DNA of 64,000 nt from Pseudohongiella sp. (GTDB lineage: Bacteria; Pseudomonadota; Gammaproteobacteria; Pseudomonadales; Pseudohongiellaceae), in contig NZ_DRFV01000003.1 in NCBI RefSeq assembly GCF_011050365.1, positions 124,001 through 188,000 on the forward strand, given 5' to 3'. Positions 1 to 22,798 of this stretch are shown here, piece after piece (the stretch's first letter is position 1; every line of letters begins with the position of its first letter). The notes under the pieces were generated by a model, which saw only the letters and a list, made by a program, of their open reading frames with translations, ran no database searches and was not told the origin of the DNA. The translations under genes and the position numbers were made by a program.

Positions 1-743
1 CCGACACTGAGCCAGCTCGCCCATGGCTGTTTGCGCCCGTTGAGCGTCGTGCCAACGTGCACCCAGCCTTCATGCACTGCCAGCACCTGTAAATCAAACT
101 CGGTGAACTCTGCATCCTGATTGATTTTGATATAGTCACCACCGGCGGCTGCATCAGACACAATACCGTCGCTGAGAATGACACGAATGTCTCCGGGCTG
201 AAAATATTCGCCCAGGCGTTGCTGCAGAATGTCTACGGCGGCCGGTGCCGAAATGTGTTTCAGGTAAGGCCGTGCCAGATGTTCCGCGGCGGGCAGGGAG
301 AATATCTCACACAGTTTTTCGCCCAACTGTCGAAGCGATTTGCGGTCGCCACGCAGATGGTCGCGGGCCGAGCCGTAAAGCTCGCGGCTGTAGCGGCCAA
401 AATCGACCGTGCCACGTGTCCGCAGCAGCTCGATTACCAGCAGATACTGGTCAATGGTGTCGCACAGGATGCCTCCCAGGCCGTCTTTGCGTCCCAGTGT
501 CCGCTGAACGTCACGACGCAGGCCCAGAAACCGGTCACGCAGGATATCCGGATCAAAATCCAGTTTGATGCGCTGGTAGTAGGCCAGATCCATATCCGGC
601 ATTTTTTGACCATTGCTGGCCAGAAACTGCGACTGTGCCGATGCCGGCCACTTGATCGCATCCAGAATCCGAATCGGACGCTGCAGTTCAATCAATTGGT
701 CGGACAGGGTTTTGACACGCCGCTGATAGTCAGCAAGGCTCAT
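1..743 (-). CDS. QEGLA-motif/DUF1704 family protein, C-terminus cut by window edge
   Basis: Translating the minus strand from the ATG at 743-741 gives an open frame of about 247 codons that runs off the left edge, so the C-terminal part is missing. It begins MSLADYQRRVKTLSDQLIEL. Near residue 224 it has HEGWVHVGTTLNG, an HExxxH-type metallopeptidase motif typical of DUF1704 (TIGR02421, 'flavohemoglobin expression-modulating QEGLA motif protein'). Eukaryotic relatives are the MATCAP tyrosine carboxypeptidases, so a zinc peptidase is plausible; the bacterial substrate is unknown. The ATG overlaps the TGA of the upstream aldehyde dehydrogenase (ATGA), so the two are probably translationally coupled. 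The eponymous QEGLA stretch should lie beyond the edge. Confidence 0.8.
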   Translation of the reverse strand, partial: MSLADYQRRVKTLSDQLIELQRPIRILDAIKWPASAQSQFLASNGQKMPDMDLAYYQRIKLDFDPDILRDRFLGLRRDVQRTLGRKDGLGGILCDTIDQYLLVIELLRTRGTVDFGRYSRELYGSARDHLRGDRKSLRQLGEKLCEIFSLPAAEHLARPYLKHISAPAAVDILQQRLGEYFQPGDIRVILSDGIVSDAAAGGDYIKINQDAEFTEFDLQVLAVHEGWVHVGTTLNGRKQPWASWLSV

Positions 744-2131
744 TCGTTGTGGTCCGCCTCGCCATTGACCACGACGGCCTTGATATTAACAAACTCGTGA
801 ATGCCAAAACGGCCCAGCTCACGCCCGTAACCGGAAGCCTTGATACCGCCGAAGGGCATGCGGGGATCGGACTTCACAAAATCATTGACCGCACAGGCAC
901 CAGCCTGCAGACGTTCGGCAGCAATCTTGGCGCCGCGCCTGGTGTCCCGGGTAAATACCGCAGCCCCTAAACCAAACATGCTCTGATTGGCCAGTGTGAT
1001 GGCCTCGTCATCACTGCGAGCCCTGATCACCGCAGCCACCGGCCCAAACAGTTCATCGTCAAACGCCGGCATACCAGGCCGCACCTCACCCAGCACCGTC
1101 GGCGAGTAGAAAGTCTTGTCGCGCTCGCCGCCGCACATCAGCACCGCACCCAGACGGATACTTTCAGTCACCTGAGCGGCCAGATCTTCACATAAATCCT
1201 CACGCGCCTGCGGGCCGACATCAGTCTCCTTCGCCAGCGGGTCGCCCACCACTTTCTTGTTCATGGCCTCGGTCATTTGTGCGGCGAACTCGCCGTAAAG
1301 TTTGGTATGGACGATAAAGCGCTTGGCGGCAATACAGCTCTGGCCATTATTCAACAGACGGCTGGTGACGCACTTTTCCACTGCCAATTTAACATCGGCA
1401 TCCTCCAGTACCACGTAGGCATCACTCCCCCCCAACTCCAGCACCGTCTTTTTGAGCGCCTTGCCGGCGGTGGCGGCAATCTTGCGCCCGGCGTCGGTGC
1501 TACCGGTAAAGGTTACCGCTTTTACTACCGGATGTTCGATCAGGGCAGCCGCCCTGGAGCCAGGCACCAGCAAGGTGCGCAGCATATTCTCAGGCAGCCC
1601 GGCATCAAGCAGGAGTTTCTCTATCGCCAGCGCGCAACCGGGCACATTGGACGCATGTTTCAGCAGCGCCGCATTACCCGCCATCAAGGCTGGGGCAAGG
1701 AACCTGAACACCTGCCAGTATGGAAAATTCCACGGCATAATGGCCAGCACAACACCCAGCGGCTGATAGCACACAAAGCGCTCGACGCCATTGCTGTCCT
1801 CATCCGGCAGATATTCATCGACCAGCATGGCGGGGCCCTGCTCAGCGTAATACTCGCAAACCCAGGCACATTTCTCGACTTCGGCTTCGGCACTGACCAG
1901 GGTTTTGCCCATCTCCTCGGACGCAAGTTTAGCCAGCGCCCCCTGCTGCTTGCGTAGCTGCGCCGCCAGATCCCGCAAGGCATTCGCCCGGTCCTGCAGA
2001 CTGGTCTGTTGCCAATGTTGCTGAGCTTTATCAACGCTATCGAGCACAGAATCGAGACGGGTCAGGTCAAACGCCTCATAACTTGCCAGCGTTTTGCCGG
2101 TGTACGGATTAACACTACTGATTTTACTCAC
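740..2131 (-). CDS. NAD(P)-dependent aldehyde dehydrogenase, succinate-semialdehyde type
   Basis: 463 residues of the aldehyde dehydrogenase superfamily. Visible motifs: PWNFPYW (133-139), FTGST in the cofactor-binding region (208-212), ELGGSD with the general-base Glu232, and GQSC with the catalytic Cys266. The short form (about 460 residues) and the GGSDAYVV block resemble Sad/YneI-type succinate-semialdehyde dehydrogenases, which oxidise succinic semialdehyde to succinate; other aldehydes are possible. The start is GTG at 2131-2129, preceded by GAGGT at a good distance. It lies 55 bp after fumC and overlaps the next gene by four bases, so it is probably in an operon with acnA and fumC. The pairing suggests feeding of succinate into the TCA cycle; that link is inference. 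Confidence 0.88.
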   Translation of the reverse strand: MSKISSVNPYTGKTLASYEAFDLTRLDSVLDSVDKAQQHWQQTSLQDRANALRDLAAQLRKQQGALAKLASEEMGKTLVSAEAEVEKCAWVCEYYAEQGPAMLVDEYLPDEDSNGVERFVCYQPLGVVLAIMPWNFPYWQVFRFLAPALMAGNAALLKHASNVPGCALAIEKLLLDAGLPENMLRTLLVPGSRAAALIEHPVVKAVTFTGSTDAGRKIAATAGKALKKTVLELGGSDAYVVLEDADVKLAVEKCVTSRLLNNGQSCIAAKRFIVHTKLYGEFAAQMTEAMNKKVVGDPLAKETDVGPQAREDLCEDLAAQVTESIRLGAVLMCGGERDKTFYSPTVLGEVRPGMPAFDDELFGPVAAVIRARSDDEAITLANQSMFGLGAAVFTRDTRRGAKIAAERLQAGACAVNDFVKSDPRMPFGGIKASGYGRELGRFGIHEFVNIKAVVVNGEADHNE

Positions 2132-12067: not shown

Positions 12068-12979
12068 TCAGAACAGCGAACGTTCATTGGCGACGTCAAC
12101 AATCGGGATAACATCCACGGCTACCGTAAGTTTGTGTTCGCCGCCACCGGTCATCACGCCCTTTAACGGCGTCACATCAGCGAAATCGCGTCCCCAGCCC
12201 AGGATTATATAGCGCTCGTCCGGCACACAGCCATTGGTCGGATCCACTTCCTGCCAGCCCCAGCCGGGAATAAAAACGGCGACCCAGGCATGCGTGGCAT
12301 CAGCGCCCAGCAGTTTTTCCTGACCGGGCGGTGGCGAAGTTTCCATATAACCACTGACATAGCGCGCGGCCAGGCCGATGGAGCGCAGGCAACCAATCAG
12401 CAAATGCGCAAAGTCCTGACACACGCCACGCTTTGTCTCCAGTACTTCCTGCAACGGAGTTGCCAGCGTGGTGGAATCTTCATCGTAGGTAAACTCATCA
12501 AATATGCGCTTGTTGAGCTCGAGCAAGGCATCGCGCAACAGCCGACCGGAGGCAAAATTGACCCGGGCGTACTCCATCAACGCCGACTGCCTTGCGATAA
12601 AAGGTGAATCCAGCACGAACAGCCGGGCAGCAATACTGTCCCTGTTGCCACTGCGAACAGCGCACGACATCTCTGCCGCTGCGTCCTCCCATGCCGTGCC
12701 GGAAAAAAAATCCTGCGCTGGCCGCGGAAAGGTCTCCACTTCACTGGAAACCACCACCTCCAGACTGTTATGCACCGCTTCAATGGCAAAGTAAGTGACC
12801 CGGTTGCCAAAAAAATCCTGTCGCTCAGAAAAACCAAGCCCGCCCGGATTGATGATCAACTGAGTATTACTGCTGGTCTGCCAGGGCAATTGCCGTGGCA
12901 AAATGCGTGCCTCGTTGTGGCTGAGCGTCGCCGGCCCACTGTACTCGTAACGGGTCAGATGTTTAAGCTGATATTTCAT
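12068..12979 (-). CDS. transglutaminase-like cysteine protease-fold protein
   Basis: 303 residues: a bacterial transglutaminase N-terminal beta region (MKYQLKHLTRYEYSGPATLS) followed by a transglutaminase-like papain-fold core. The catalytic triad is visible: Cys187 in KRGVCQDFAHL, His230 in ATHAWVAVF, Asp246 in EVDPTNG. Bacterial members are thought to be peptidases or amide-bond transferases; no substrate is established. No signal peptide is seen, so it is probably cytoplasmic. Its ATG overlaps the stop of the upstream ATP-grasp/alpha-E gene by one base (TGATG). It is the last gene of the left arm of the divergent locus. Confidence 0.9.
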   Translation of the reverse strand: MKYQLKHLTRYEYSGPATLSHNEARILPRQLPWQTSSNTQLIINPGGLGFSERQDFFGNRVTYFAIEAVHNSLEVVVSSEVETFPRPAQDFFSGTAWEDAAAEMSCAVRSGNRDSIAARLFVLDSPFIARQSALMEYARVNFASGRLLRDALLELNKRIFDEFTYDEDSTTLATPLQEVLETKRGVCQDFAHLLIGCLRSIGLAARYVSGYMETSPPPGQEKLLGADATHAWVAVFIPGWGWQEVDPTNGCVPDERYIILGWGRDFADVTPLKGVMTGGGEHKLTVAVDVIPIVDVANERSLF

Positions 12980-15645
12980 CAGTGACCCACCTCCATGGTG
13001 ACCAGTTGACGTGACGCCTCCACATGGCTGAAATGACTGTGCGAAACGGCATTGGACAATTCCGCCATGGGTTCTATCAACTCATCCAGCAAATCCATCA
13101 GAATCTCGCGGGCCTCTTCCGAATGCTCAAGATCAGCAAGACTTTCGATATCAACCAGGTGCAGCGTGCTGGAGGCCTGAATAATCAGCCGGTTCTCGAG
13201 GTTGCGATAGGACGTGTTTTCGTCCGTGGACGGTAAACGTGCCACTTGACGCCCCAGTCGCTTGAGCATATACCCCACGGAGCGCGGATTGGTTTCATCA
13301 AACAACAACAGGTCCAGGATGGCGGACGGGTGCAATTGCGAGCGGTAGCGTCGACGGTAGACGGTGAAATTATCAGTGGTGGCCAGAACCACCTCCCACA
13401 AGGGAATACCCGGCTGGTTGGCGGTCAGCAGTGCCAGTTTGAGCAACTGCAGGGTACCCAGTATACGCTCTATAAAGCGTCCGATATCGAGGAACCGCCA
13501 ACCATAGTGATGGGGCATGGTCTCATTGCACAAGCCGAAAAAAGCCGCCAGATCGATCACGATCGCTTCCAGCAAGCGCTGACCGGCTACCGCGCCTTTG
13601 GTGCGGGCGATGGCATTGCAGCGTTGACGTATACTACTGACCGAGCGCCAGGCATCATCGCCCAGGTGATCGCGCACCGCCCGACTATTGCGGATAAAAT
13701 GACTGAAGGTCGCCGGCAGCCCGTCGGGTGCCTGGTCAGATAGCAGATGCAGTAGCCGATCGCGCGCCAGCAGATATTCCGCAGAAAACCGCGGGTGTTC
13801 GCCCATGGCTGCGAGCTCCTCGGCAAGCTCATCCTCATCAGGCGCGACACCCAACGCTGTGAGCAGATCCGGCAACAAAGTGACCACCGCCTCTTGTGGA
13901 CTCTCCTGCAACAACCGGCCCAGGGCTTCGCGCAGCAGTCGGGCCCGGATATCCAGACGCTCTCCGTAACGCCCCATCCAGAACAGGCTCTCTGCCACCC
14001 GACAGGGCAGATCCTTGCCGTCCCGGGTGACCAGTATCGGTCCCTGCGCCTGCCGCAGCATACTGACATGCGGTTGTGGCGATTGTGCCAGTACCCAAAT
14101 GTCCTTCACCACCCGGCTCTTCATCATGGCAGTGCCCGGCTCACCGACCCAGGCCAGGCCTCCGGGCATGATCCGGAAGGCATGATCACGCACCGGTTTG
14201 TTGATGTATTCCGCTTCGATAGCGGAGAAAAAACGTAAAGTGGTGGTTTGCCTTTCCACGGATTTACTCACCGGATTGAATCCGGGCGTCACTGCGGCCC
14301 GCAGCGGTTTCTGGGCGGTAAACAGGTGCGGCCGCGATTGCAGATCAAAACGCAGTGTCTGCACCGCTTCCAGTCCCATCTGATCGACATGGTAAGTTTT
14401 ACCGGGACGGGTGATGTCTCGCAATACCCACTCGTCCATCGAGCTCCGGATCTGCTCCAGTGCCTGCGGATCGCCGCACCAGAGCGCGTCGCGGCCACGC
14501 AGCATCAGAGTTTCGCCCAACAGCCGCTGACACAGATCCGGCAAAAAAGCGGCCAGTGCCGGGTGCTCCAGCACCCCGGCGCCCAATGCGTTGACCACAT
14601 GCACATGCCCGCTGCGCGCTGCCTGCATCAGACCCGGCACGCCGAGCAGGGAGTCCGGCCGCAGCTCCAGTGGATCACACCAGGGATCATTGATATGGCG
14701 CATGATGACATCCACCTGATGCAACCCACCCAGCGTCCGCACCGCGACCTGACCATCCCGGACCACCAGATCGTCGCCTTCCACCAGCGGAAAGTTCATG
14801 TAGTTTGCCAGCCAGGCATGTTCAAAATAACCTGGGCTACCGGGACCGGGCGTCCACAGCACGATATTGGGCTCCTGGCGCTGATTGCTTGCCAGACTGG
14901 CCAGACAACGGTGCTGGGCCTGCAGAAATCCGGCCAGACGCTTCATTGGCGCATCCCGATAAACGCCAGGTAATGCGCGTGACAGGGTTATTCGATTCTC
15001 CAGCGCATAACCCACGCCCGCAGGTGACTGAGTCCAGTCAGCCAATACCTGCCACTGCCCCTGTTCATCACGAATGACATCAGTCCCGTGAAAAATCAAC
15101 AGTGGCCGATCCACCTGTGATGGCGAATCAGCTGCGGAAAACAGGAATGCGGGATGGGTAAACACGAGCTCTGGCGGTAGCAGACCTTCATCGATGACCA
15201 GCCGCTCGCCATAAAGATCATCCAGCAAAAGCGCCAGTAATCGGCTGCGCTGTCGCAGACCGGCTTCAAGGTAAGACCAGTCGTCATCACTGATCACATA
15301 GGGCAGACAATCCAGGCGCCAGGAGCGCAACTGTCCCGGATCATCTTCATAGGGGTTAAAGGTGACACCGTTTTCGTGCAGCAGACTCTGCGCTTCTTCG
15401 CTACGGGCGACCAGGGTATCGGCGCCCATGGCGACAAATTCGGCCAGCAAGGCCTGCCAATGCGGGCGTGGCTGCTGACCGGGACCGAGCAACTCATCGC
15501 GGCCGTTGTAACCGGGATAGTCGCCCAGCAGGTCATTCAAGGCAGGATCTTTAATGCCCGAAGGCTGCATATCGTTTACCGCAGTGTGGTGTACTGCCAA
15601 TTTGGCCGGGGGAACATTATAGACCAGTGCCGGCAACACCGGCAC
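12979..15645 (-). CDS. circularly permuted ATP-grasp fused to alpha-E (DUF403) domain
   Basis: 888 residues from the GTG at 15645. Residues 40-520 form a circularly permuted type 2 ATP-grasp region (VEGDDLVVRDG, GAGVLEHPALAAFLP). Residues 545-880 form an alpha-E domain with the RVAESLFWMGRYGERLDIRA signature (Glu562-Arg563). ATP-grasp proteins of this group are predicted carboxylate-amine/peptide ligases; alpha-E domains have no known activity. The GTG start would overlap the upstream DUF2126 gene by 29 bp; an ATG at 15570 (863 residues) is an alternative, and neither has a strong ribosome site. Where the stand-alone paralogue has LEDN and KPANESGGYG, this protein has LADW and no obvious lysine motif. 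Gene fusion relative to the right arm is the notable feature. Confidence 0.88.
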   Translation of the reverse strand: MPVLPALVYNVPPAKLAVHHTAVNDMQPSGIKDPALNDLLGDYPGYNGRDELLGPGQQPRPHWQALLAEFVAMGADTLVARSEEAQSLLHENGVTFNPYEDDPGQLRSWRLDCLPYVISDDDWSYLEAGLRQRSRLLALLLDDLYGERLVIDEGLLPPELVFTHPAFLFSAADSPSQVDRPLLIFHGTDVIRDEQGQWQVLADWTQSPAGVGYALENRITLSRALPGVYRDAPMKRLAGFLQAQHRCLASLASNQRQEPNIVLWTPGPGSPGYFEHAWLANYMNFPLVEGDDLVVRDGQVAVRTLGGLHQVDVIMRHINDPWCDPLELRPDSLLGVPGLMQAARSGHVHVVNALGAGVLEHPALAAFLPDLCQRLLGETLMLRGRDALWCGDPQALEQIRSSMDEWVLRDITRPGKTYHVDQMGLEAVQTLRFDLQSRPHLFTAQKPLRAAVTPGFNPVSKSVERQTTTLRFFSAIEAEYINKPVRDHAFRIMPGGLAWVGEPGTAMMKSRVVKDIWVLAQSPQPHVSMLRQAQGPILVTRDGKDLPCRVAESLFWMGRYGERLDIRARLLREALGRLLQESPQEAVVTLLPDLLTALGVAPDEDELAEELAAMGEHPRFSAEYLLARDRLLHLLSDQAPDGLPATFSHFIRNSRAVRDHLGDDAWRSVSSIRQRCNAIARTKGAVAGQRLLEAIVIDLAAFFGLCNETMPHHYGWRFLDIGRFIERILGTLQLLKLALLTANQPGIPLWEVVLATTDNFTVYRRRYRSQLHPSAILDLLLFDETNPRSVGYMLKRLGRQVARLPSTDENTSYRNLENRLIIQASSTLHLVDIESLADLEHSEEAREILMDLLDELIEPMAELSNAVSHSHFSHVEASRQLVTMEVGH

Positions 15646-18600
15646 GTCTTAAATCCAGCGTATGCGGATAATCCTGCCCTGGCGCCTGCGGCACATGGTC
15701 GATCTTGCCGTGGCTGTGGCCATGTGCCCAGAAGCGCGCCATGCGGCGTGCCTCGGCTTCGTTGGCATTGACCGGGAAAGTCTCATAGTTACGCCCGGCC
15801 GGATGCACCACATGGTAGGTACATCCACCCATGGAGCGTTGATGCCAGGTGTCTATCAGGTCAAACACCAGCGGCGCATGTACCTTGATGCGTGGGTGCA
15901 ATGCCGACGGCGGCTGCCAGGCCCGATAACGCACAGCGGCAACGGCTACCCCCGGCATCCCGGTGGACTGCAGCGGCACTTTATAACCGTTGCAGGTCAG
16001 CACATGTCGTGACGGGTTGAAGTCGGTAAGCTTCACTTCCAGACGTTCCACGGAAGAATCCACATAACGCGCGGTGCCGCCGCCACTGGCCTCTTCCCCC
16101 AGTACATGCCAGGGTTCGATCGCCTGACGCAGGCTCAGGTGCGTACCTTCATAGCGCACCTCACCAATCATCGGGAAGCGGAACTCCAGAAACGGGGCAA
16201 ACCATGACAGATCAAAGTCAAAGCCGTGCTCGCGCAGGTCAAACAGGACATCGGCAAGATCCTGCCAGATAAAATGCGGCATCATCCATTTGTCGTGCAA
16301 TGCCGTGCCCCAGCGCACCAGCGGTTTGCGGTAGGGCTCCTTATAGAAACGCGCGACCAGCGCCCGAATCAACAATTGCTGCATCAGGCTCATTTCCGGG
16401 TGCGGTGGCATTTCGAAACCGCGTAGCTCCAGCAAACCCAGCCTCCCGGTGGCTGAGTCCGGGGAATACATCTTGTCGACACAGAACTCGGCACGATGGG
16501 TATTACCGGTAATATCGGTCAGCAGATTGCGCACCAGGCGATCCACCAGCCAAGGCTCCTTGACATCACCCCTGGGCATTTGCGACAGGGCGATTTCCAG
16601 TTCATACAGGGCCTCGTGACGGGCCTCATCCACACGCGGCGCCTGGCTGGTCGGCCCGATAAACATGCCGGAAAACAGATACGACAAACTGGGGTGGTGT
16701 TGCCAGAAAGTCAACATGCTGCCCAGCAGATCCGGACGGCGCAGGAAAGGTGACTCTTCCGGCGTGCGCCCGCCCAGAGTGACGTGATTGCCGCCGCCAG
16801 TGCCGGTATGACGCCCGTCCAGCATGAATTTTTCCGTACCCAGCCGGGTCAGCCGCGCTTCCTCGTACAGGATACGCGTATTGTTAACCAGATCCGGCCA
16901 TGACGAGGCCGGCATGACGTTAACTTCAATAACTCCCGGGTCCGGCGTAATCATGAACTTTTCCAGACGCGGATCGGCCGGCGGCGAGTAGCCCTCAATA
17001 CATACCGGCAGATTCAGTGCTGCCGCCGTATGTTCAACGACCGCCAGCAAGCTCAGATAGTCCTCCAGAAGTGGCAGCGGCGGCAGGAATACAAACAGTT
17101 TCCCCTCGCGTGCTTCGATGCACAGCGCGGTGCCGATGACGCCTTCGTCGGCGGCATCCACCAACTGTTCCTGCCAGTTCTGTCCGGCTGCCAGGTGATG
17201 GTGCCCGGGCGTACCCGAGACTTCAGTCGGCACATGGTTATACATGCGCGCCACCTCCCCCGCCTGTGTATGCAGATCATCCAGATCGGGCAACTCTGCA
17301 AATGGCGAACGCGGCTGGATCTCTTCTCGCTTTTTGATTGGCAACGAAGACAGCGGCAGCCTCAAACCCATCGGCGAGTCACCCGGAATCAGGAACAGAT
17401 GGTCACGTTTCAGCGGCCAGTGCCCAGTCATCCAGCGATCCTTCTCGCGCGTCAGCGGCAGCGTCAGTCCCACGGGTTTATCCAGACCGCGCTCCAGTAC
17501 CCGCGCCAGCCGCGCGCGATTGATATCATCGCTCAGATCTTCAGCGTGCAGGTCGAGATCCGCTGGCTGCTGTTGCTCCAGCCACAGATAGTAGTAGGCA
17601 TCTTCGTAACACGGTATCAGGAAACGACCGGGCACCTTGAGCGCAGTTACCAGAGCGTTGGCAAAGCCCCTGGCCTCTTTTTCGCCATAACCATAGTCCC
17701 TGTCGATGTCAGCCAGCCACTGGTCGTCACGCCACATGGGTTTGCCATCCCGGCGCCAGTAGCAGGCCAGTGCCCAGCGTGGCAGAACCTCACCCGGATA
17801 CCATTTACCCTGTTGATACTGCAATAAGGAGTTGGGCGCGTAATGCGGGCGCAAGCGCTGCATCAACTGTTCTGACAATTTACGTTTGGTGGGCCCCTGC
17901 GCGGCAATGGTCCATTCTGGTGCATCCATATCATCAACTGACACAAATGTGGGCTCGCCGCCCATGGTCAACCGGACATCCAGCGCGTCCAGTTCACTGT
18001 CCACGACATTACCCAGTTCTTCAATATCCGACCACTGCGCATCGGTATAAGGTTTGGTGACGCGCGGATCTTCGTGCACCCGGGTCACGCTCATGTCAAA
18101 GCCAAAGGTCACTTCCGTGGGTTCGGTAGCACCGGTAATCGGGGCCGCACCCGCCGGGTCCGGCGTCGCCGCCAGCGGCAAATGGCCTTCGCCGGCAAAC
18201 AGACCCGAGGTCGGGTCCAGACCTATCCAGCCTGCACCCGGAATAAACACTTCACACCAGGCATGCAGATCGGTGAAATCCTTGTCGGTACCGGACGGAC
18301 CGTCCAGCGCCTTCACATCGGCGGTCAATTGCACCAGGTAGCCCGAGACGAAGCGTGCGGCCAGACCCAGTCGGCGCAGGATATGCACCAGCAACCAGGT
18401 CGAGTCGCGACAGGACCCACGAGCCAGCTTCAGTGTTTCCTGTGGCGATTGCACGCCGGGCTCCATACGAATCAGGTATTCGATATCCTGTGCCAGGCGT
18501 TGATTCAGGCCCACCAGGAAACCGGTAATATCTGTTTTTTCTCGCTTGACGCTGCTCAGCCACTTATCCAGCAGCGGCCACGACTGGTTACTTTCCAGAT

Positions 18601-18949
18601 AAGGTGCCAGCTCTTTACGCAGATCAGGTGGGTAATCGAAGGGAAAATGCTCGGCATACTCTTCCACAAAAAAGTCAAACGGGTTCACCACCGTCATCGG
18701 GGCAATGAGTTCAACTTCGATATGCAGGCGGGAGATTTTTTCCGGAAATACCAGGCGCGCGATGTGGTTGCCAAAGGGGTCCTGTTGCCAATTGATGAAA
18801 TATTCACCCCCGGTTATTTTGAGGCTGTACGCATCAATGGGCGTGCGGCAATGCGGTGCCGGCTTCAGCCGGACCTGATGTGGACCAACCTCAATAGGCC
18901 GGTCAAAATCATAACGGGTGGAATGTTTCAGTGCTACGCGGATGGTCAT
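15617..18949 (-). CDS. transglutaminase-like domain fused to DUF2126 putative amidoligase
   Basis: 1110 residues. The N-terminal 270 residues are a transglutaminase-like domain with Cys180 (ARGSCRDS), His229 (DLHAWCEVF) and Asp245 (GLDPTSG). The remaining 800 or so residues match DUF2126, which Pfam describes as a putative amidoligase. Its conserved blocks include LTMGGEPTFVS and, further on, GTGGGNHVTLGG, SPFLRRPDLL and HPSLSYLFSG. The protein thus joins a possible amide-cleaving or transfer domain to a possible amide-forming one. It is the first gene of the left arm; the ATG at 18949 has only a weak upstream GGAAG. No signal peptide is seen, so a cytoplasmic role is likely. Substrate unknown. 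Confidence 0.9.
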   Translation of the reverse strand: MTIRVALKHSTRYDFDRPIEVGPHQVRLKPAPHCRTPIDAYSLKITGGEYFINWQQDPFGNHIARLVFPEKISRLHIEVELIAPMTVVNPFDFFVEEYAEHFPFDYPPDLRKELAPYLESNQSWPLLDKWLSSVKREKTDITGFLVGLNQRLAQDIEYLIRMEPGVQSPQETLKLARGSCRDSTWLLVHILRRLGLAARFVSGYLVQLTADVKALDGPSGTDKDFTDLHAWCEVFIPGAGWIGLDPTSGLFAGEGHLPLAATPDPAGAAPITGATEPTEVTFGFDMSVTRVHEDPRVTKPYTDAQWSDIEELGNVVDSELDALDVRLTMGGEPTFVSVDDMDAPEWTIAAQGPTKRKLSEQLMQRLRPHYAPNSLLQYQQGKWYPGEVLPRWALACYWRRDGKPMWRDDQWLADIDRDYGYGEKEARGFANALVTALKVPGRFLIPCYEDAYYYLWLEQQQPADLDLHAEDLSDDINRARLARVLERGLDKPVGLTLPLTREKDRWMTGHWPLKRDHLFLIPGDSPMGLRLPLSSLPIKKREEIQPRSPFAELPDLDDLHTQAGEVARMYNHVPTEVSGTPGHHHLAAGQNWQEQLVDAADEGVIGTALCIEAREGKLFVFLPPLPLLEDYLSLLAVVEHTAAALNLPVCIEGYSPPADPRLEKFMITPDPGVIEVNVMPASSWPDLVNNTRILYEEARLTRLGTEKFMLDGRHTGTGGGNHVTLGGRTPEESPFLRRPDLLGSMLTFWQHHPSLSYLFSGMFIGPTSQAPRVDEARHEALYELEIALSQMPRGDVKEPWLVDRLVRNLLTDITGNTHRAEFCVDKMYSPDSATGRLGLLELRGFEMPPHPEMSLMQQLLIRALVARFYKEPYRKPLVRWGTALHDKWMMPHFIWQDLADVLFDLREHGFDFDLSWFAPFLEFRFPMIGEVRYEGTHLSLRQAIEPWHVLGEEASGGGTARYVDSSVERLEVKLTDFNPSRHVLTCNGYKVPLQSTGMPGVAVAAVRYRAWQPPSALHPRIKVHAPLVFDLIDTWHQRSMGGCTYHVVHPAGRNYETFPVNANEAEARRMARFWAHGHSHGKIDHVPQAPGQDYPHTLDLRRAGVAGTGL

Positions 18950-18970
18950 CGGGTTAGGCTTCCAGAGAGT

Positions 18971-19000
18971 ATGTTAAGAGGATAGCAACGCCTGTGCCAA
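18971..19000 (-). promoter_or_regulatory. candidate promoter for the left (DUF2126) arm
   Basis: Read on the minus strand, TTGGCA (19000-18995) and TAACAT (18976-18971) are separated by 18 bp and lie just upstream of the DUF2126 start. The -35 matches five of six consensus bases and the -10 matches four, so this is a moderate candidate only. If correct, the 5' leader would be very short. Confidence 0.35.
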
Positions 19001-19032
19001 AAGCAAGTTATCATAATTTTATTAGCAAACAG

Positions 19033-19056
19033 TTGTCAGCTCGCGCGAGCCGTGAA
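19033..19056 (+). promoter_or_regulatory. palindrome beside a candidate -35, right (ATP-grasp) arm
   Basis: A perfect 12-bp palindrome, GCTCGCGCGAGC, at 19039-19050 directly follows TTGTCA (19033-19038), a near-consensus -35. The matching -10 would be the weak AAAGAT near 19056. A dimeric regulator bound here would block or guide RNA polymerase. This is a sequence observation; the regulator is unknown. Confidence 0.35.
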
Positions 19057-19108
19057 AAGATAGATGCAGAGAACAGACTTTCCAAAGCTGGTACACAGAT
19101 TGCTTCAC

Positions 19109-19192
19109 TGTGTTCATACAACCTGGTTTGACTGAACTGGTTTATACAGGTTGGTTTAAACAAATTGGTTCGCACAGAACGGGTTCAGACTG
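19109..19192 (+). repeat. degenerate 14-bp tandem repeats upstream of the ATP-grasp operon
   Basis: Four contiguous 14-base units are clear: CTGGTTTGACTGAA (19123), CTGGTTTATACAGG (19137), TTGGTTTAAACAAA (19151) and TTGGTTCGCACAGA (19165). A fifth, weaker unit starts at 19179, and a shifted partial one at 19109. The shared core is YTGGTTNNNAC. The array lies between the candidate promoter and the start codon at 19222, so it would be in the leader or promoter. It may be a multi-site operator or an RNA element. Confidence 0.6.
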
Positions 19193-19221
19193 ATCAAGAC
19201 ACAAAGCCAAAACGAGGGTGA

Positions 19222-20712
19222 ATGAGCAACATCAACTGGGAAGAATACAAAGCTACCGGATTCTACGACGAACTGATCGCTGCTGACGGCAAACCACGCC
19301 CGGAAGCCGACAAGTTATGCCAGTATCTCGCCAACCTCGACGCCCGGGAACTTCAGGAGCACAAGACCGCTGCCGACGTTGCCATTCAGCTGATGGGCAT
19401 CACCTTTACTGTATACACCGAAGGCGCCATGATCGACCGCGCCTGGCCCTTTGATATCGTGCCGCGCATCATACCGCTACAGGAATGGCAAAAGACCGAA
19501 GCCGGCCTGAAGCAACGCGTACAGGCCCTGAACATGTTTATCAATGACCTGTATCACGATCAGAAAATCATCAAAGATGGTATTTTCCCCAGGGAACTGC
19601 TGACTCACTCGGTCAATTTCCGGCCCCAGTGCGTGGGTATCAAAACACCGCATAATGTCTGGGCTCATATATGTGGCTCAGACCTGGTGCGCGACAAGGA
19701 TGGCACTCTGTATGTGCTGGAAGATAACCTGCGGGTACCGTCGGGTGTGTCCTACATGCTGGAAAACCGCAATGTGACCAAACGCGTGATGCCAGAACTG
19801 TTTGCCTCCGGTCAGATCCAGCCAGTGGACGATTATACCTCCCAGCTTTATGACATGCTGGCATCAATGTCACCACGCCCCGGAGATGATCCATCCATCG
19901 TCATCCTGACACCCGGCATTTATAACTCCGCCTACTACGAGCATGCCTACCTGGCACAACAGATGGGCGTGCAGCTGGTGGAAGGCTCGGACCTCGTGGT
20001 GGGTGACGACGACTGCGTCTACATGCGTATGGTAGACGGCCTGTCACGGGTTGATGTGATCTACCGCCGTGTTGATGACATGTTTCTGGATCCCGAAGTT
20101 TTCAACCCCGAGTCTACACTGGGCTGCCGGGGCCTGATGCGCGCCTGGCGCAAAGGCAATGTCGCACTCGCCAATGCGCCCGGCGCTGGCGTCGCGGACG
20201 ACAAGGTGGTGTACGCCTTTGTGCCCAAAATCATCAAATACTATCTTGATCAGGAAGCGCTGTTGCCTAACGTGCCCAGTTACCTGTGCATGTTTGAAGA
20301 TGACCGTAATTACGTGCTCGACAATCTGGACAAACTGGTCGTTAAACCCGCCAATGAGTCCGGCGGTTACGGCATGATGATCGGCCCGCACGTAAGCAAA
20401 AAGGAGCGTAAGAAATTTGCCGAACTGATCAAGGCAGATCCGCGCAACTACATGGCACAGCCGACACTGGCGCTGTCCACCTCACCCACCTTGATTGACC
20501 ATGGCATGGAATCACGCCACGTGGATTTACGCCCCTTTATTCTGTCGGGCGAATCGACTTTCGTAACCACCGGCGGGCTGACGCGCGTGGCGCTGACCAA
20601 GGGTTCACTGGTGGTGAATTCATCCCAGGGTGGCGGCAGCAAGGACACCTGGATAGTCGACATCGACGGCCTGACCAATAGCCCCGGACTTTCACAGAGA
20701 GCAGGTAACTAA
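19222..20712 (+). CDS. stand-alone circularly permuted type 2 ATP-grasp protein
   Basis: 496 residues, a full-length circularly permuted ATP-grasp protein (older Pfam names DUF404/DUF407). Key blocks are intact: VLEDNLRVPSGVSYMLENR starting at residue 165 (acidic metal-binding residues), VEGSDLVVGDD (253-263) and KLVVKPANESGGYG (371-384) with the presumed ATP-contacting Lys375. Iyer, Aravind and colleagues predicted that such proteins are peptide or amide ligases working with transglutaminases and alpha-E proteins; no reaction is established. The ATG follows GAGGGTGA. The next gene, alpha-E, begins one base after this stop, showing an operon. Confidence 0.93.
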   Translation: MSNINWEEYKATGFYDELIAADGKPRPEADKLCQYLANLDARELQEHKTAADVAIQLMGITFTVYTEGAMIDRAWPFDIVPRIIPLQEWQKTEAGLKQRVQALNMFINDLYHDQKIIKDGIFPRELLTHSVNFRPQCVGIKTPHNVWAHICGSDLVRDKDGTLYVLEDNLRVPSGVSYMLENRNVTKRVMPELFASGQIQPVDDYTSQLYDMLASMSPRPGDDPSIVILTPGIYNSAYYEHAYLAQQMGVQLVEGSDLVVGDDDCVYMRMVDGLSRVDVIYRRVDDMFLDPEVFNPESTLGCRGLMRAWRKGNVALANAPGAGVADDKVVYAFVPKIIKYYLDQEALLPNVPSYLCMFEDDRNYVLDNLDKLVVKPANESGGYGMMIGPHVSKKERKKFAELIKADPRNYMAQPTLALSTSPTLIDHGMESRHVDLRPFILSGESTFVTTGGLTRVALTKGSLVVNSSQGGGSKDTWIVDIDGLTNSPGLSQRAGN

Positions 20713-20713
20713 A

Positions 20714-21676
20714 ATGCTTTCACGTGTTGCAGAAAATATTTACTGGCTTGCACGCTATATTGAACGTGCCGAAGACACCGCACGACTGTTGAGCGTTAAC
20801 AGCAACCTGATGCTGGACCTGCCGCGTGCCACACAGCTGGGCTGGTCGGAGATTATCGCCATTACCGGACACGGCGAGTTGTTTGATGAGCTGTACCCCA
20901 ACCGTGACGAAGTCAGCGTCCTGTCCTTTATCTGCAGCGATCGACGCTATTCCGGCTCCATCATCAGCTCCCTGTCTGCGGCCCGTGAAAATCTGAGGAC
21001 CACGCGCGATGTTATTCCGCGCGAAATATGGGAAGAGATCAACCAGCTTTATCTGGGCGTGCGCGACCTGGTCGAATCCGGTGTGACGCCGCGCAAGCGC
21101 GATGCTTTCCTGCGCCGGGTCATTCACAGCTGCCAGACCGTCAACGGACTGATTGAGGGCTCGCTCAGCTACACCCAGGTACGCACTTTCCTGATGCTTG
21201 GCCGCCAGCTGGAGCGCGCCGACATGACCACCCGTATTATTGATGTGCGCTCCGCCAATCTGCTGCCACGCAGTCCGGGCGAACTGACCCCGTTTGAAAA
21301 CCTGCAGTGGATGAGTGTGCTCAAATCACTCACCGGGTACCAGATGTATCGCCAACATGTGCGCCTGCGGATTCGCGGGCCGGACGTGCTAAGCTTTCTG
21401 CTGCAGAACCGGAATTTTCCGCGAGCAGTTGCCTGCAGCCTGGAGCGGCTGGCTAATGCCTTGCTGACATTGCCACGCAACGAAACCGCGCTTAACGAAG
21501 TGGAAACCTGCCGCCAGCACCTGGCAGATGCCGAAATCGCGGTACTGGCGGCAGAGCCGGATCGACTTCACGCTTTCGTGGATGAAATTCAGGTCGATTT
21601 TACCGACCTGCATGAAGCCATCCGACAAACCTATTTCGACGGCCCGACAGAAATTTCCCGGCAGCAGAGCGAATAG
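20714..21676 (+). CDS. alpha-E domain protein (DUF403)
   Basis: 320 residues, all helical by composition, matching the alpha-E family. Its N-terminus MLSRVAENIYWLARYIERAE carries the defining Glu-Arg pair at residues 17-18, and the RMVA-like helices repeat through the protein (LGRQLERADMTTRIIDVR). The activity is unknown; the family nearly always sits beside circularly permuted ATP-grasp genes, as here. The gap to the ATP-grasp stop is one base, and the next gene begins immediately after this stop. It is the separate counterpart of the C-terminal half of the 12979-15645 fusion. Confidence 0.93.
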   Translation: MLSRVAENIYWLARYIERAEDTARLLSVNSNLMLDLPRATQLGWSEIIAITGHGELFDELYPNRDEVSVLSFICSDRRYSGSIISSLSAARENLRTTRDVIPREIWEEINQLYLGVRDLVESGVTPRKRDAFLRRVIHSCQTVNGLIEGSLSYTQVRTFLMLGRQLERADMTTRIIDVRSANLLPRSPGELTPFENLQWMSVLKSLTGYQMYRQHVRLRIRGPDVLSFLLQNRNFPRAVACSLERLANALLTLPRNETALNEVETCRQHLADAEIAVLAAEPDRLHAFVDEIQVDFTDLHEAIRQTYFDGPTEISRQQSE

Positions 21677-22798
21677 GTGCAAAAATTGACAGGCACATCA
21701 TACGGGCATGTTCATCAATGTCAGTGCGGCCAACTGCTTTTTTTTGACAACTCAGTCTGTTTGCGCTGCGGCGCTGCGGTGGCCTATCAGCCCAATATTG
21801 GCCAGGTAATAAGCCTGGAACCCGCCGAAACGCAAGAGCAATGGTACATTCACGGCGAAGACACCAATACCCGTCGCAGCTATGCCCGATGCGCCAACCT
21901 CCACTCCCCTGCGCAGTGTAACTGGCTCGTGACTGACGTGCGCACTGGCATTCTGTGCACCGCCTGCGCCCTCAACATCACCATCCCCGACCTGAGCCAG
22001 GCTGACAATGCCGAGTATTGGCAGACCTGCGAAGGTGCCAAACGTCAACTGATCGCCCAGCTTATAATTCTTGGACTGCCAGTCAACAATCGCAACATTG
22101 ATCCCTACCGCGGCCTCGGTTTCGAACTGCTGCGCTGGCAACAGGGGGAGCCGCCGGTGATGACCGGACATGAAGACGGCGTCATCACACTCGATATTAT
22201 GGAAGCCGACCCTGCCCACCGCGAGCAGCTACGCCAGCAGATGCACGAACCTTACCGCACACTGCTCGGCCACTTCCGCCATGAGTCCGGTCACTATTAC
22301 TGGGACCTGCTGGTCCGCGACACGCCCTGGTTGACCGTCTGCCGCCAATTCTTTGGTGACGAACGTCTGGACTACGGCACTGCCTTGCAGCAGCACTACC
22401 AGAATGGCCCGCCCGCCAACTGGCAGCAAACTTACATCAGCAGTTATGCCGCCTCCCACCCCTGGGAAGACTGGGCAGAAACCTGGGCGCACTACCTTCA
22501 CATGACCGACACCCTAAACGCCGCAGAAGAGTTTGGCATCAATCCCAGGACCATCGCCATACAAACCGACCCTTTCACCCGGAACCGACTGGAAGACAAC
22601 AGGTTCCCTGTCGATAATACCGACAGCGAAACCGACCCCGACTCATTCCTGGACATGGTCAATCGCTGGGTGCGACTCAGCAGCGTGCTGAATGTACTGG
22701 CGCGAAGCATGGGTCAACCGGACAGTTATCCCTTTGTGCTGACCGTGGAGAGCTTACGCAAGCTGTATTTGGTGCACCGGGTAGCAACAAAAAAATAA
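21677..22798 (+). CDS. putative zinc-binding metallopeptidase with twin zinc ribbons
   Basis: 373 residues of the DUF2248/'putative zinc-binding metallopeptidase' family. The N-terminus holds two cysteine clusters typical of zinc ribbons: Cys15, 17, 28, 31 and Cys72, 81, 94, 97. The active-site motif is HESGH (202-206, HExxH), and a downstream ETWAHYLH segment probably supplies further ligands. The GTG start is the codon directly after the alpha-E stop, so translation is likely coupled; a later start cannot be excluded. An 8-T run near 21738-21745 lies in the first zinc ribbon and is a possible slippage site. It is the last gene of the right arm and is predicted to process whatever the ligases make. 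Confidence 0.88.
   Translation: MQKLTGTSYGHVHQCQCGQLLFFDNSVCLRCGAAVAYQPNIGQVISLEPAETQEQWYIHGEDTNTRRSYARCANLHSPAQCNWLVTDVRTGILCTACALNITIPDLSQADNAEYWQTCEGAKRQLIAQLIILGLPVNNRNIDPYRGLGFELLRWQQGEPPVMTGHEDGVITLDIMEADPAHREQLRQQMHEPYRTLLGHFRHESGHYYWDLLVRDTPWLTVCRQFFGDERLDYGTALQQHYQNGPPANWQQTYISSYAASHPWEDWAETWAHYLHMTDTLNAAEEFGINPRTIAIQTDPFTRNRLEDNRFPVDNTDSETDPDSFLDMVNRWVRLSSVLNVLARSMGQPDSYPFVLTVESLRKLYLVHRVATKK

Follow-up and report, generated by a model that had tools for sequence, protein, structure and literature searches.

Gene content and organization of the locus

On a 64,000-nucleotide stretch of a Pseudohongiella sp. genome (contig NZ_DRFV01000003.1, positions 124,001 to 188,000; hereafter, the window), six genes are arranged in two divergent operons that encode predicted adenosine triphosphate (ATP)-dependent ligases, alpha-E proteins, transglutaminase-like domains and a metallopeptidase. 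The locus is a recurrent gene set and a variant of the Anbu/alpha-E/transglutaminase systems; new here are a predicted pseudo-ligase, a pair of sigma-54-type promoters, and a link to Anbu. A check of the open reading frames (ORFs) of the window confirmed the coordinates, strands and tight packing given in a preliminary description. Within an arm, neighbouring genes share as many as 29 bases or lie no more than one base apart, the ATP-grasp gene at 19222-20712 directly adjoins the alpha-E gene at 20714-21676, and the gap between the arms spans 272 bases (18950-19221). The domains previously assigned, including two alpha-E domains, two transglutaminase-like domains and an HExxH metallopeptidase, were recovered with Pfam, all above the curated cut-offs (1308.8 bits for DUF2126 and 548.9 bits for CP_ATPgrasp_2 of 19222-20712). 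The features, in window coordinates, are as follows:

12068-12979, minus strand: transglutaminase-like protein, Bact_transglu_N and Transglut_core, triad C187/H230/D246 (Pfam; 53/53 in alignment)
12979-15645, minus strand: circularly permuted ATP-grasp (CP_ATPgrasp_2) with C-terminal Alpha-E; ATP-grasp predicted non-catalytic (Pfam, alignments, tree)
15617-18949, minus strand: N-terminal transglutaminase-like domain (Bact_transglu_N and Transglut_core; C180/H229/D245) fused to DUF2126 (Pfam; triad in 78/78)
18984-18999, minus strand: sigma-54-type promoter of the minus arm, TGGCACAGGCGTTGCT, 11/12 consensus positions (promoter scan)
19089-19104, plus strand: sigma-54-type promoter of the plus arm, TGGTACACAGATTGCT, 10/12 consensus positions (promoter scan)
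19222-20712, plus strand: standalone circularly permuted ATP-grasp (CP_ATPgrasp_2), E167-x-N169, K375 and glycine-rich loop intact (Pfam; PDB 3n6x)
20714-21676, plus strand: standalone alpha-E protein, all-helical in the model (Pfam; predicted model)
21677-22798, plus strand: Zn_ribbon_DZR_6 and Peptidase_Mx metallopeptidase, HExxH at 202-206, E264/E268 (Pfam; 6/6 in alignment)

The two alpha-E matches and the one DUF2126 match of this genome all fall inside the locus. A second Peptidase_Mx gene lies elsewhere (contig 2, 287345-288043; L130:5316-6281), beside a carboxylesterase gene.

Named loci for comparison were the best 80 of at least 589 matches, centred on the transglutaminase-DUF2126 fusion (Tg-DUF2126), many of them from Pseudomonas. 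Three of these (L047, L116 and L118) repeat G012, G008 and G023. The repeats were dropped from the promoter and NtrC-box counts (standalone ATP-grasp, Tg-DUF2126 and fused ATP-grasp-alpha-E genes), the neighbour clustering, the tree, the ATP-grasp residue alignments and the triad counts, and were kept in the 80-locus arm counts, the first residue table and the control ORFs. Sequences beyond the length limits were left out of the family collection.

A catalytic and a motif-less ATP-grasp

In ATP-grasp enzymes, an E-x-N motif binds metal and a glycine-rich loop binds phosphate. The standalone protein, whose sole sequence match in the PDB is 3n6x (E 3e-157), keeps E167, N169, K375, G381, G382 and G384 in all 36 aligned sequences. 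E-x-N, present in 36/36 standalone proteins, is missing from the corresponding region of all 51 fused proteins; the equivalent of E167 is Glu in one of them and the equivalent of N169 is Asn in none (0/51). Likewise, all three loop glycines are present in 36/36 standalone vs 0/51 fused sequences, with two of the three found in a single fused protein, and the ATP-lysine position of the window's own fused protein is occupied by Arg. Because both E-x-N and the glycine-rich loop are missing, the fused domain is predicted to be non-catalytic, and it is probably an old, maintained partner. The preliminary description counted three ligase modules; by their residues, catalytic motifs are intact in two, the standalone ATP-grasp and DUF2126.

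Losses extend further in the six-member clade of the window (with Nitrincola L048, Vreelandella L049, Salinicola L050, Halopseudomonas L051 and Halovibrio L103), where the fused protein has lost K375 in 5/6 members, two by deletion, and R432 in 6/6. In the Halomonadaceae loci L049 (13416-15824) and L103 (13259-15670), a single ORF of roughly 800 amino acids (aa) encodes the fused protein, and the glycine-loop region is wholly deleted from it.

A quick tree of the 36 standalone and 51 fused ATP-grasps, scored by the Shimodaira-Hasegawa-like approximate likelihood ratio test (SH-aLRT), splits the two families by one branch with a support of 100; several of its branches are long and were flagged. 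Several phyla are found on each side, and the families are therefore old paralogues. On this tree, in-locus duplication was rejected, and with it the earlier notion of duplicated core modules. The six-member clade is recovered on both sides with identical branching, which argues that the two arms stayed together in that clade; in the fused family a long stem (0.89) leads to it, in the standalone family a short one (~0.1). The fused gene also adjoins Tg-DUF2126 on the same strand, within 400 bases, for 45 of 56 fused matches at 54 loci. No mention of an inactive, pseudo- or degenerate ATP-grasp was found in the accessible portions of the ATP-grasp and alpha-E literature, although Iyer et al. 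2009 may mention one.

Transglutaminase-like, DUF2126, alpha-E and peptidase domains

The Cys-His-Asp triads described earlier as intact proved invariant in the alignments, at 53/53 for 12068-12979 and 78/78 for 15617-18949. Six acidic positions checked in DUF2126 are Glu in 77 or 78 of 78 sequences, and the HExxH motif and two downstream Glu residues of Peptidase_Mx are kept in 6/6. Models were judged by predicted local distance difference test (pLDDT), predicted template modelling (pTM) score and Foldseek. The DUF2126 part, which has no sequence match in the PDB, was modelled at pLDDT 78.8 and pTM 0.81. In its Foldseek search, ranks 1-28 are filled by glutamine synthetases, GmaS and the predicted glutathione synthase 1tt4, with a best E of 0.025 and TM-scores of at most 0.36. 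As antibody fragments appear among ranks 29-50, it is the series of leading hits that carries the glutamine-synthetase signal, and by this weak fold match DUF2126 is probably a glutamine-synthetase-like amide ligase domain. The standalone alpha-E model (pLDDT 92.8, pTM 0.91) is all helical and found no PDB match by Foldseek (best E 0.5); thus, there is no function to borrow from known folds.

Co-occurrence and linkage of the two arms

Among 114 genomes of the class, DUF2126 is found in 20, alpha-E in 29 and Peptidase_Mx above 200 bits in 13 (19 with any match). Alpha-E accompanies DUF2126 in every one of the 20 genomes (Fisher p 1e-15) and the stronger Peptidase_Mx matches in every one of the 13 (p 1.6e-9), and DUF2126 lies near an alpha-E on the same contig in 18 of the 20, the exceptions being G085 and G137. 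Within 10 kb at the 80 best loci, both arms are present at 24, the fused arm only at 32, the standalone pair only at 14 and neither at 10; the corresponding counts for the 54 loci with full flanks are 20, 22, 9 and 3. A second alpha-E exists in the genomes of all 22 fused-only loci with full flanks, on another contig in 21 and about 7 kb away in one; the open frame of the second alpha-E in G153, at 652 aa, is not clearly standalone. In the class sample, a second alpha-E accompanies an alpha-E frame of at least 850 aa in 9/10 genomes, G120 being without.

The divergent pair of standalone ATP-grasp and Tg-DUF2126 genes recurs at 14/80 loci, including L071, L074, L077, L082, L095 and L121, and is therefore not unique to the window's clade. 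Arrangements vary, being either divergent or on a single strand (Marinomonas, Marinobacterium, Halioglobus and a planctomycete metagenome-assembled genome). The arms look tied, given their proximity at 24/80 loci, the second alpha-E in 22/22 genomes and a common gap with two sigma-54-type promoters. Unlinked arms, which in company with the lack of a shared phenotype the preliminary description would have counted against its reading, do occur in many genomes, but those genomes still hold both.

The divergent gap and its regulation

The minus-arm site (18999-18984) is the only one in the window with GG-N10-GC to score 11, and the plus-arm site (19089-19104) is one of seven that score 10. In dinucleotide shuffles of the 272-base gap, scores equal to those of the minus and plus sites arose at frequencies of 0.0012 and 0.0089, respectively, and both together in 0/20000. 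Of the 13 same-genus loci, counting the window, 12 keep a plus site (not L038) and 11 a minus site (not L034 or L039) that scores at least 9. Among the named loci, sites scoring at least 10 within 250 bases before the gene were counted, with every ORF of at least 300 aa in the 80 loci, taken from its first ATG/GTG, serving as a control that includes the system genes and some spurious frames. Such sites precede 19/33 standalone ATP-grasp genes and 16/77 Tg-DUF2126 genes, vs 52/872 control ORFs (Fisher p 3e-14 and 4e-5), and 1/50 of the operon-internal fused genes (p 0.35). NtrC-like boxes matching at least 10/12 positions are enriched before the ATP-grasp (9/33 vs 44/867 controls; p 6e-5) and show no enrichment before Tg-DUF2126 (6/76; p 0.28). 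In Nitrincola L048 and Halopseudomonas L051, 10/12 boxes sit between the promoters, where the window has none. The genome encodes one NtrC over the cut-off and one RpoN.

Two further features of the gap were observed. Between the promoters lies a TTGYCR-N17-TGATACAAC-like element (TGATACAAC in part) that recurs by eye in the genus and looks like a sigma-70 promoter or activator site. The leader of the plus arm (19115-19205) carries extra sequence with imperfect CTGGTTT-like repeats, spaced by eye at about 17-18 bases, that is mostly missing from 12 aligned relatives.

Sigma-54 often serves in nitrogen starvation. The two arms are probably switched on together by sigma-54, judging from these promoter-like sites, and the signal in this organism, we infer, is most likely nitrogen limitation. 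Homologues have been connected with nitrogen in several reports, cited here from their accessible text. For example, B. cenocepacia I35_5080-83 (DUF404/407, DUF403 and two transglutaminase-domain proteins) are among the common targets of NtrC and sigma-54 (PMC5491218). In P. putida, values for PP_2686-2688 were 11 to 37 in nitrogen limitation (PMC7801951), and PP2685-2687 rose 6.6- to 11.1-fold in another nitrogen-limited data set (PMC3325844). In marine metagenomes, DUF403/404/407 show a correlation with domains of urea metabolism (PMC3597751). Finally, in the available part of a Caulobacter NtrC study, only hvyA, a transglutaminase homologue, turned up (PMC10274813).

Anbu and other neighbours

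The gene for the proteasome-like Anbu (PDB 5loy, E 1.9e-72) lies at 121334-122101 of contig 3, which puts it 1.9 kb beyond the left edge of the window, with 13,970 bases separating it from the minus arm; in this genome it shares the contig with the locus, not the operon. Across 37 relatives, Anbu is found in 21 and DUF2126 in 22, with both in 19 (p 1.9e-5), and Anbu and the locus share one contig in 13/16 genomes compared. The intervening gap, from coordinates entered by hand for 16/21 Anbu genomes, is 9.3-14 kb in eight same-genus genomes, against -1 to 643 bases in the remaining five. Anbu is adjacent to genes of the locus in G016, G018, G022, G023 and G027. In G018, which belongs to another genus, the same Anbu block abuts the Peptidase_Mx gene of the plus arm; the distance from Anbu to ATP-grasp-alpha-E is about 80-650 bases in G016, G021 and G027, and in G026 a transglutaminase-like stretch intervenes between the two. 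From these positions, Anbu looks like an old partner that has been set apart in this genus.

Clustering of 852 ORFs (at least 60 aa, within 6 kb of system genes, 77 loci) made Anbu the commonest neighbour family outside the six, at 13/77 loci, one member being a 75-residue fragment. The earlier statement that no acceptor peptide or carrier is recognisable stands: there is no room for one inside the arms, and no recurrent small protein appears in the 22 largest neighbour clusters of the 77 loci, whose median lengths are at least 218 aa. A 91-residue acidic ORF before Anbu was rejected as an acceptor, as it occurs in 18/37 relatives, including G013 and G019, which have neither DUF2126 nor Anbu. 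Since no acceptor gene was found, the substrate is probably a metabolite (a peptide or amine) or a general cellular protein. An anti-phage defence system was also considered and rejected, with PADLOC matching 0/7 proteins.

A family mostly of 400-440 residues stands beside or inside the gene set at 7/77 loci (L063:6656-7909, L069:2692-4002, L074:8463-9788, L078:8767-9999, L082:9560-10363, L097:16763-17983 and L106:18648-19889). One member was checked and has no Pfam match; the family is possibly a further component of the system. A MATCAP/QEGLA-family protein and an M48 peptidase accompany Anbu in this genome and in the eight same-genus genomes examined; here, this peptidase-rich neighbourhood occupies window positions 1-744 (minus strand) and the contig leftward (L129:9407-10744 and L129:8515-9396). 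TamA/TamB and a C92 protein, beside the locus in only some of 20 same-genus loci examined, and BioY, beside it in 0/20, were set aside as bystanders.

Relation to known systems

Such gene sets were reportedly predicted by Iyer and colleagues (2009) to make or process peptides, and the assignment of the locus to this type is supported by the present analysis. Like the Anbu operons of P. putida (PP_2685-2688) and Yersinia bercovieri, the locus combines an ATP-grasp and alpha-E core with a transglutaminase-like protein, has Anbu in the same genome region, and has homologues linked to nitrogen. Unlike them, its plus arm has Peptidase_Mx in place of Anbu and transglutaminase, a second arm diverges from the first, and Anbu lies about 14 kb away. 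With Anbu outside the operon, "Anbu-type system" is thus a better term than "Anbu operon". The minus arm has the same gene order as the Tg-DUF2126/fused ATP-grasp-alpha-E/transglutaminase operons that stand alone at 22/54 full-flank loci, mostly in Pseudomonas; here, in contrast, it is divergently linked to the other arm through paired sigma-54-type promoters. The B. cenocepacia set I35_5080-83 likewise places a "large protein containing transglutaminase-like domain" beside DUF403 and DUF404/407 genes, according to the accessible text (PMC5491218). Glutamine synthetase and GmaS, the nearest predicted folds of DUF2126 (weak E), have conserved acidic residues in common with it, whereas DUF2126 has no PDB sequence match and is fused here to a transglutaminase-like domain. 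Finally, the pairing of ligase and peptidase recalls RimK/RimB and RloABC (ATP-grasp and retropepsin-like peptidase), as described in the part of the source available (PMC12239564), but the ATP-grasp family by Pfam and the peptidases differ, and no retropepsin match was found in the locus.

Proposed function and alternatives

Taken as a whole, the data suggest a cytosolic, sigma-54-controlled system for making and breaking amide bonds that spreads one pathway over two divergent operons, a reading to which we give about an even chance. Sequence comparison establishes the domains, the kept and lost motifs, the promoter-like sites, the co-occurrence of the arms and the linkage to Anbu; we infer the reactions (two ligation chemistries with hydrolase partners), the pairing of the fused protein with DUF2126, and the cytosolic location, the last from the absence of a signal peptide by eye. 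In the proposed mechanism, the standalone ATP-grasp, with its alpha-E partner, and the glutamine-synthetase-like DUF2126 domain would each be an ATP-dependent ligase that activates a carboxylate and links it to an amine. Use of ATP is supported by the homologous Yersinia ATP-grasp, which frees phosphate from ATP, an outcome that does not tell ligation from hydrolysis (PMC6376114). The fused ATP-grasp-alpha-E protein, its metal- and phosphate-binding motifs lost, would most likely partner the adjacent transglutaminase-DUF2126 protein and present substrate or alpha-E. The groups attached by the ligases would then be trimmed, transferred or removed by the zinc peptidase, the transglutaminase-like domains and Anbu, an N-terminal nucleophile (Ntn) hydrolase. 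Production would be expected when sigma-54 is engaged, most likely in nitrogen limitation. A bolder version, which we consider doubtful, is a conjugation-deconjugation cycle of nitrogen starvation in which a catalytic and an ancient non-catalytic ATP-grasp, each joined to an alpha-E, would form a multi-enzyme complex with a glutamine-synthetase-like ligase; the complex would couple amino acids or amines to cellular substrates, and a proteasome-like particle would perform the removal.

Several observations weigh against a single sigma-54-controlled ligation and hydrolysis pathway. The sequence does not discriminate between the ligase and hydrolase directions, and the transglutaminase-like domains could act either way. 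No PDB entry matches DUF2126 by Foldseek at an E of 0.001 or better. On the side of regulation, sigma-54-type sites are lacking from both L041 and L042, of other genera, as well as upstream of Anbu. In the window's own clade, both arms reach 10/12 in only 3/5 named relatives (L048, L051 and L103). The window gap has no clear NtrC box, the best being 9/12, in the leader, a score that 24% of controls reach, and NtrC is therefore only a putative activator here. According to the accessible data of one study, PP_2686-2688 also rise in an rpoN mutant, which speaks against strict sigma-54 dependence in P. putida, and PP_2685 (Anbu) barely changed in the wild type (1.12, one data set; PMC7801951). As for Anbu, a specific interaction with proteins of the Yersinia operon was not detected, and the purified protein cleaved none of the substrates tried, in the part of the work available (PMC6376114). 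Anbu is missing, moreover, from 2 of 14 same-genus genomes with DUF2126 (G008 and G010), and as both hold the two-armed locus, it is dispensable.

The preliminary description left the choice between two substrates and two steps of one pathway; because the fused ATP-grasp is predicted to be non-catalytic and the families are old paralogues, one pathway is favoured and two substrates are less likely. Two independent pathways that share a promoter region by chance would account for the fused arm standing alone at 22/54 full-flank loci, with the second alpha-E on another contig in 21 of those 22 genomes, and for the single alpha-E, in a long frame, of class genome G120. The persistence of a second alpha-E in all 22 fused-only genomes and in 9/10 class genomes with the long frame speaks against such independence, as do the motif-less fused ATP-grasp and the paired promoters in one gap, and we regard it as improbable. 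A related objection to the one-pathway system is that the fused ATP-grasp might be catalytic after all, through a rebuilt active site. Its equivalents of R99, R183, E240, D257, D290 and N318 are kept in 51/51 sequences, that of D154 in 45/51 and the K375 lysine in 40/51, from which it follows that the domain is under constraint. The consistent absence of E-x-N and of the glycine trio, which every standalone protein has, together with the further loss of R432 and K375 in the window's clade, nevertheless makes a rebuilt site quite unlikely.

If the one-pathway reading is correct, its substrate could be a protein or a small molecule, and both versions are compatible with the data. In the first, cellular proteins would be tagged by the ligases with amino acids or a peptide and then freed of the tag or degraded by Anbu, Peptidase_Mx and the transglutaminase-like proteins, as in pupylation or RimK/RimB glutamylation. 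Anbu is the commonest outside neighbour and abuts the plus arm in other genera, and the proposal is repeated in the accessible text of two papers. On the other hand, purified Anbu was without peptidase activity on the substrates tried, in the portion of the report available (PMC6376114). No tag gene was found in a locus without free space, genomes lacking the system also carry the 91-residue ORF that precedes Anbu, and Anbu is missing from G008 and G010. Tagging of proteins is thus possible, if unlikely. In the second version, the ligases would load amines or polyamines with glutamate or a peptide, and nitrogen would be freed later by the hydrolases, amine scavenging by amide tagging having its model in the gamma-glutamyl-putrescine route. 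GmaS occupies Foldseek ranks 5 and 6 for DUF2126, and the single PDB entry that the ATP-grasp matches in sequence bears the name putative glutathionylspermidine synthase. Homologues are regulated by nitrogen limitation or NtrC/sigma-54 (PMC5491218, PMC7801951, PMC3325844), and the domains track those of urea metabolism in marine metagenomes (PMC3597751), as far as the accessible texts report. Yet the substrate idea is built on names and a weak fold match, and there is no recurrent amine oxidase or amine transporter among the identified neighbour clusters (7 of the 22 largest), one of which, from 5 loci, is an ATP-binding cassette (ABC) transporter ATPase with no cargo assigned. The homologous Yersinia ATP-grasp, moreover, was not stimulated by glutamine or glutamate in the available part of the study (PMC6376114). 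Scavenging of amine nitrogen is likewise possible, if unlikely.

The Anbu/alpha-E gene set is present in many bacteria, and the accessible text of the 2017 Anbu papers gives no confirmed function for it. The present analysis would narrow the candidates for ligase activity from three modules to the two whose motifs are intact, with the fused ATP-grasp as a partner and nitrogen limitation as the condition. If the fused protein is indeed a conserved pseudo-ligase, the locus would exemplify an unusual pairing of active and inactive ATP-grasps that has been kept in several phyla.

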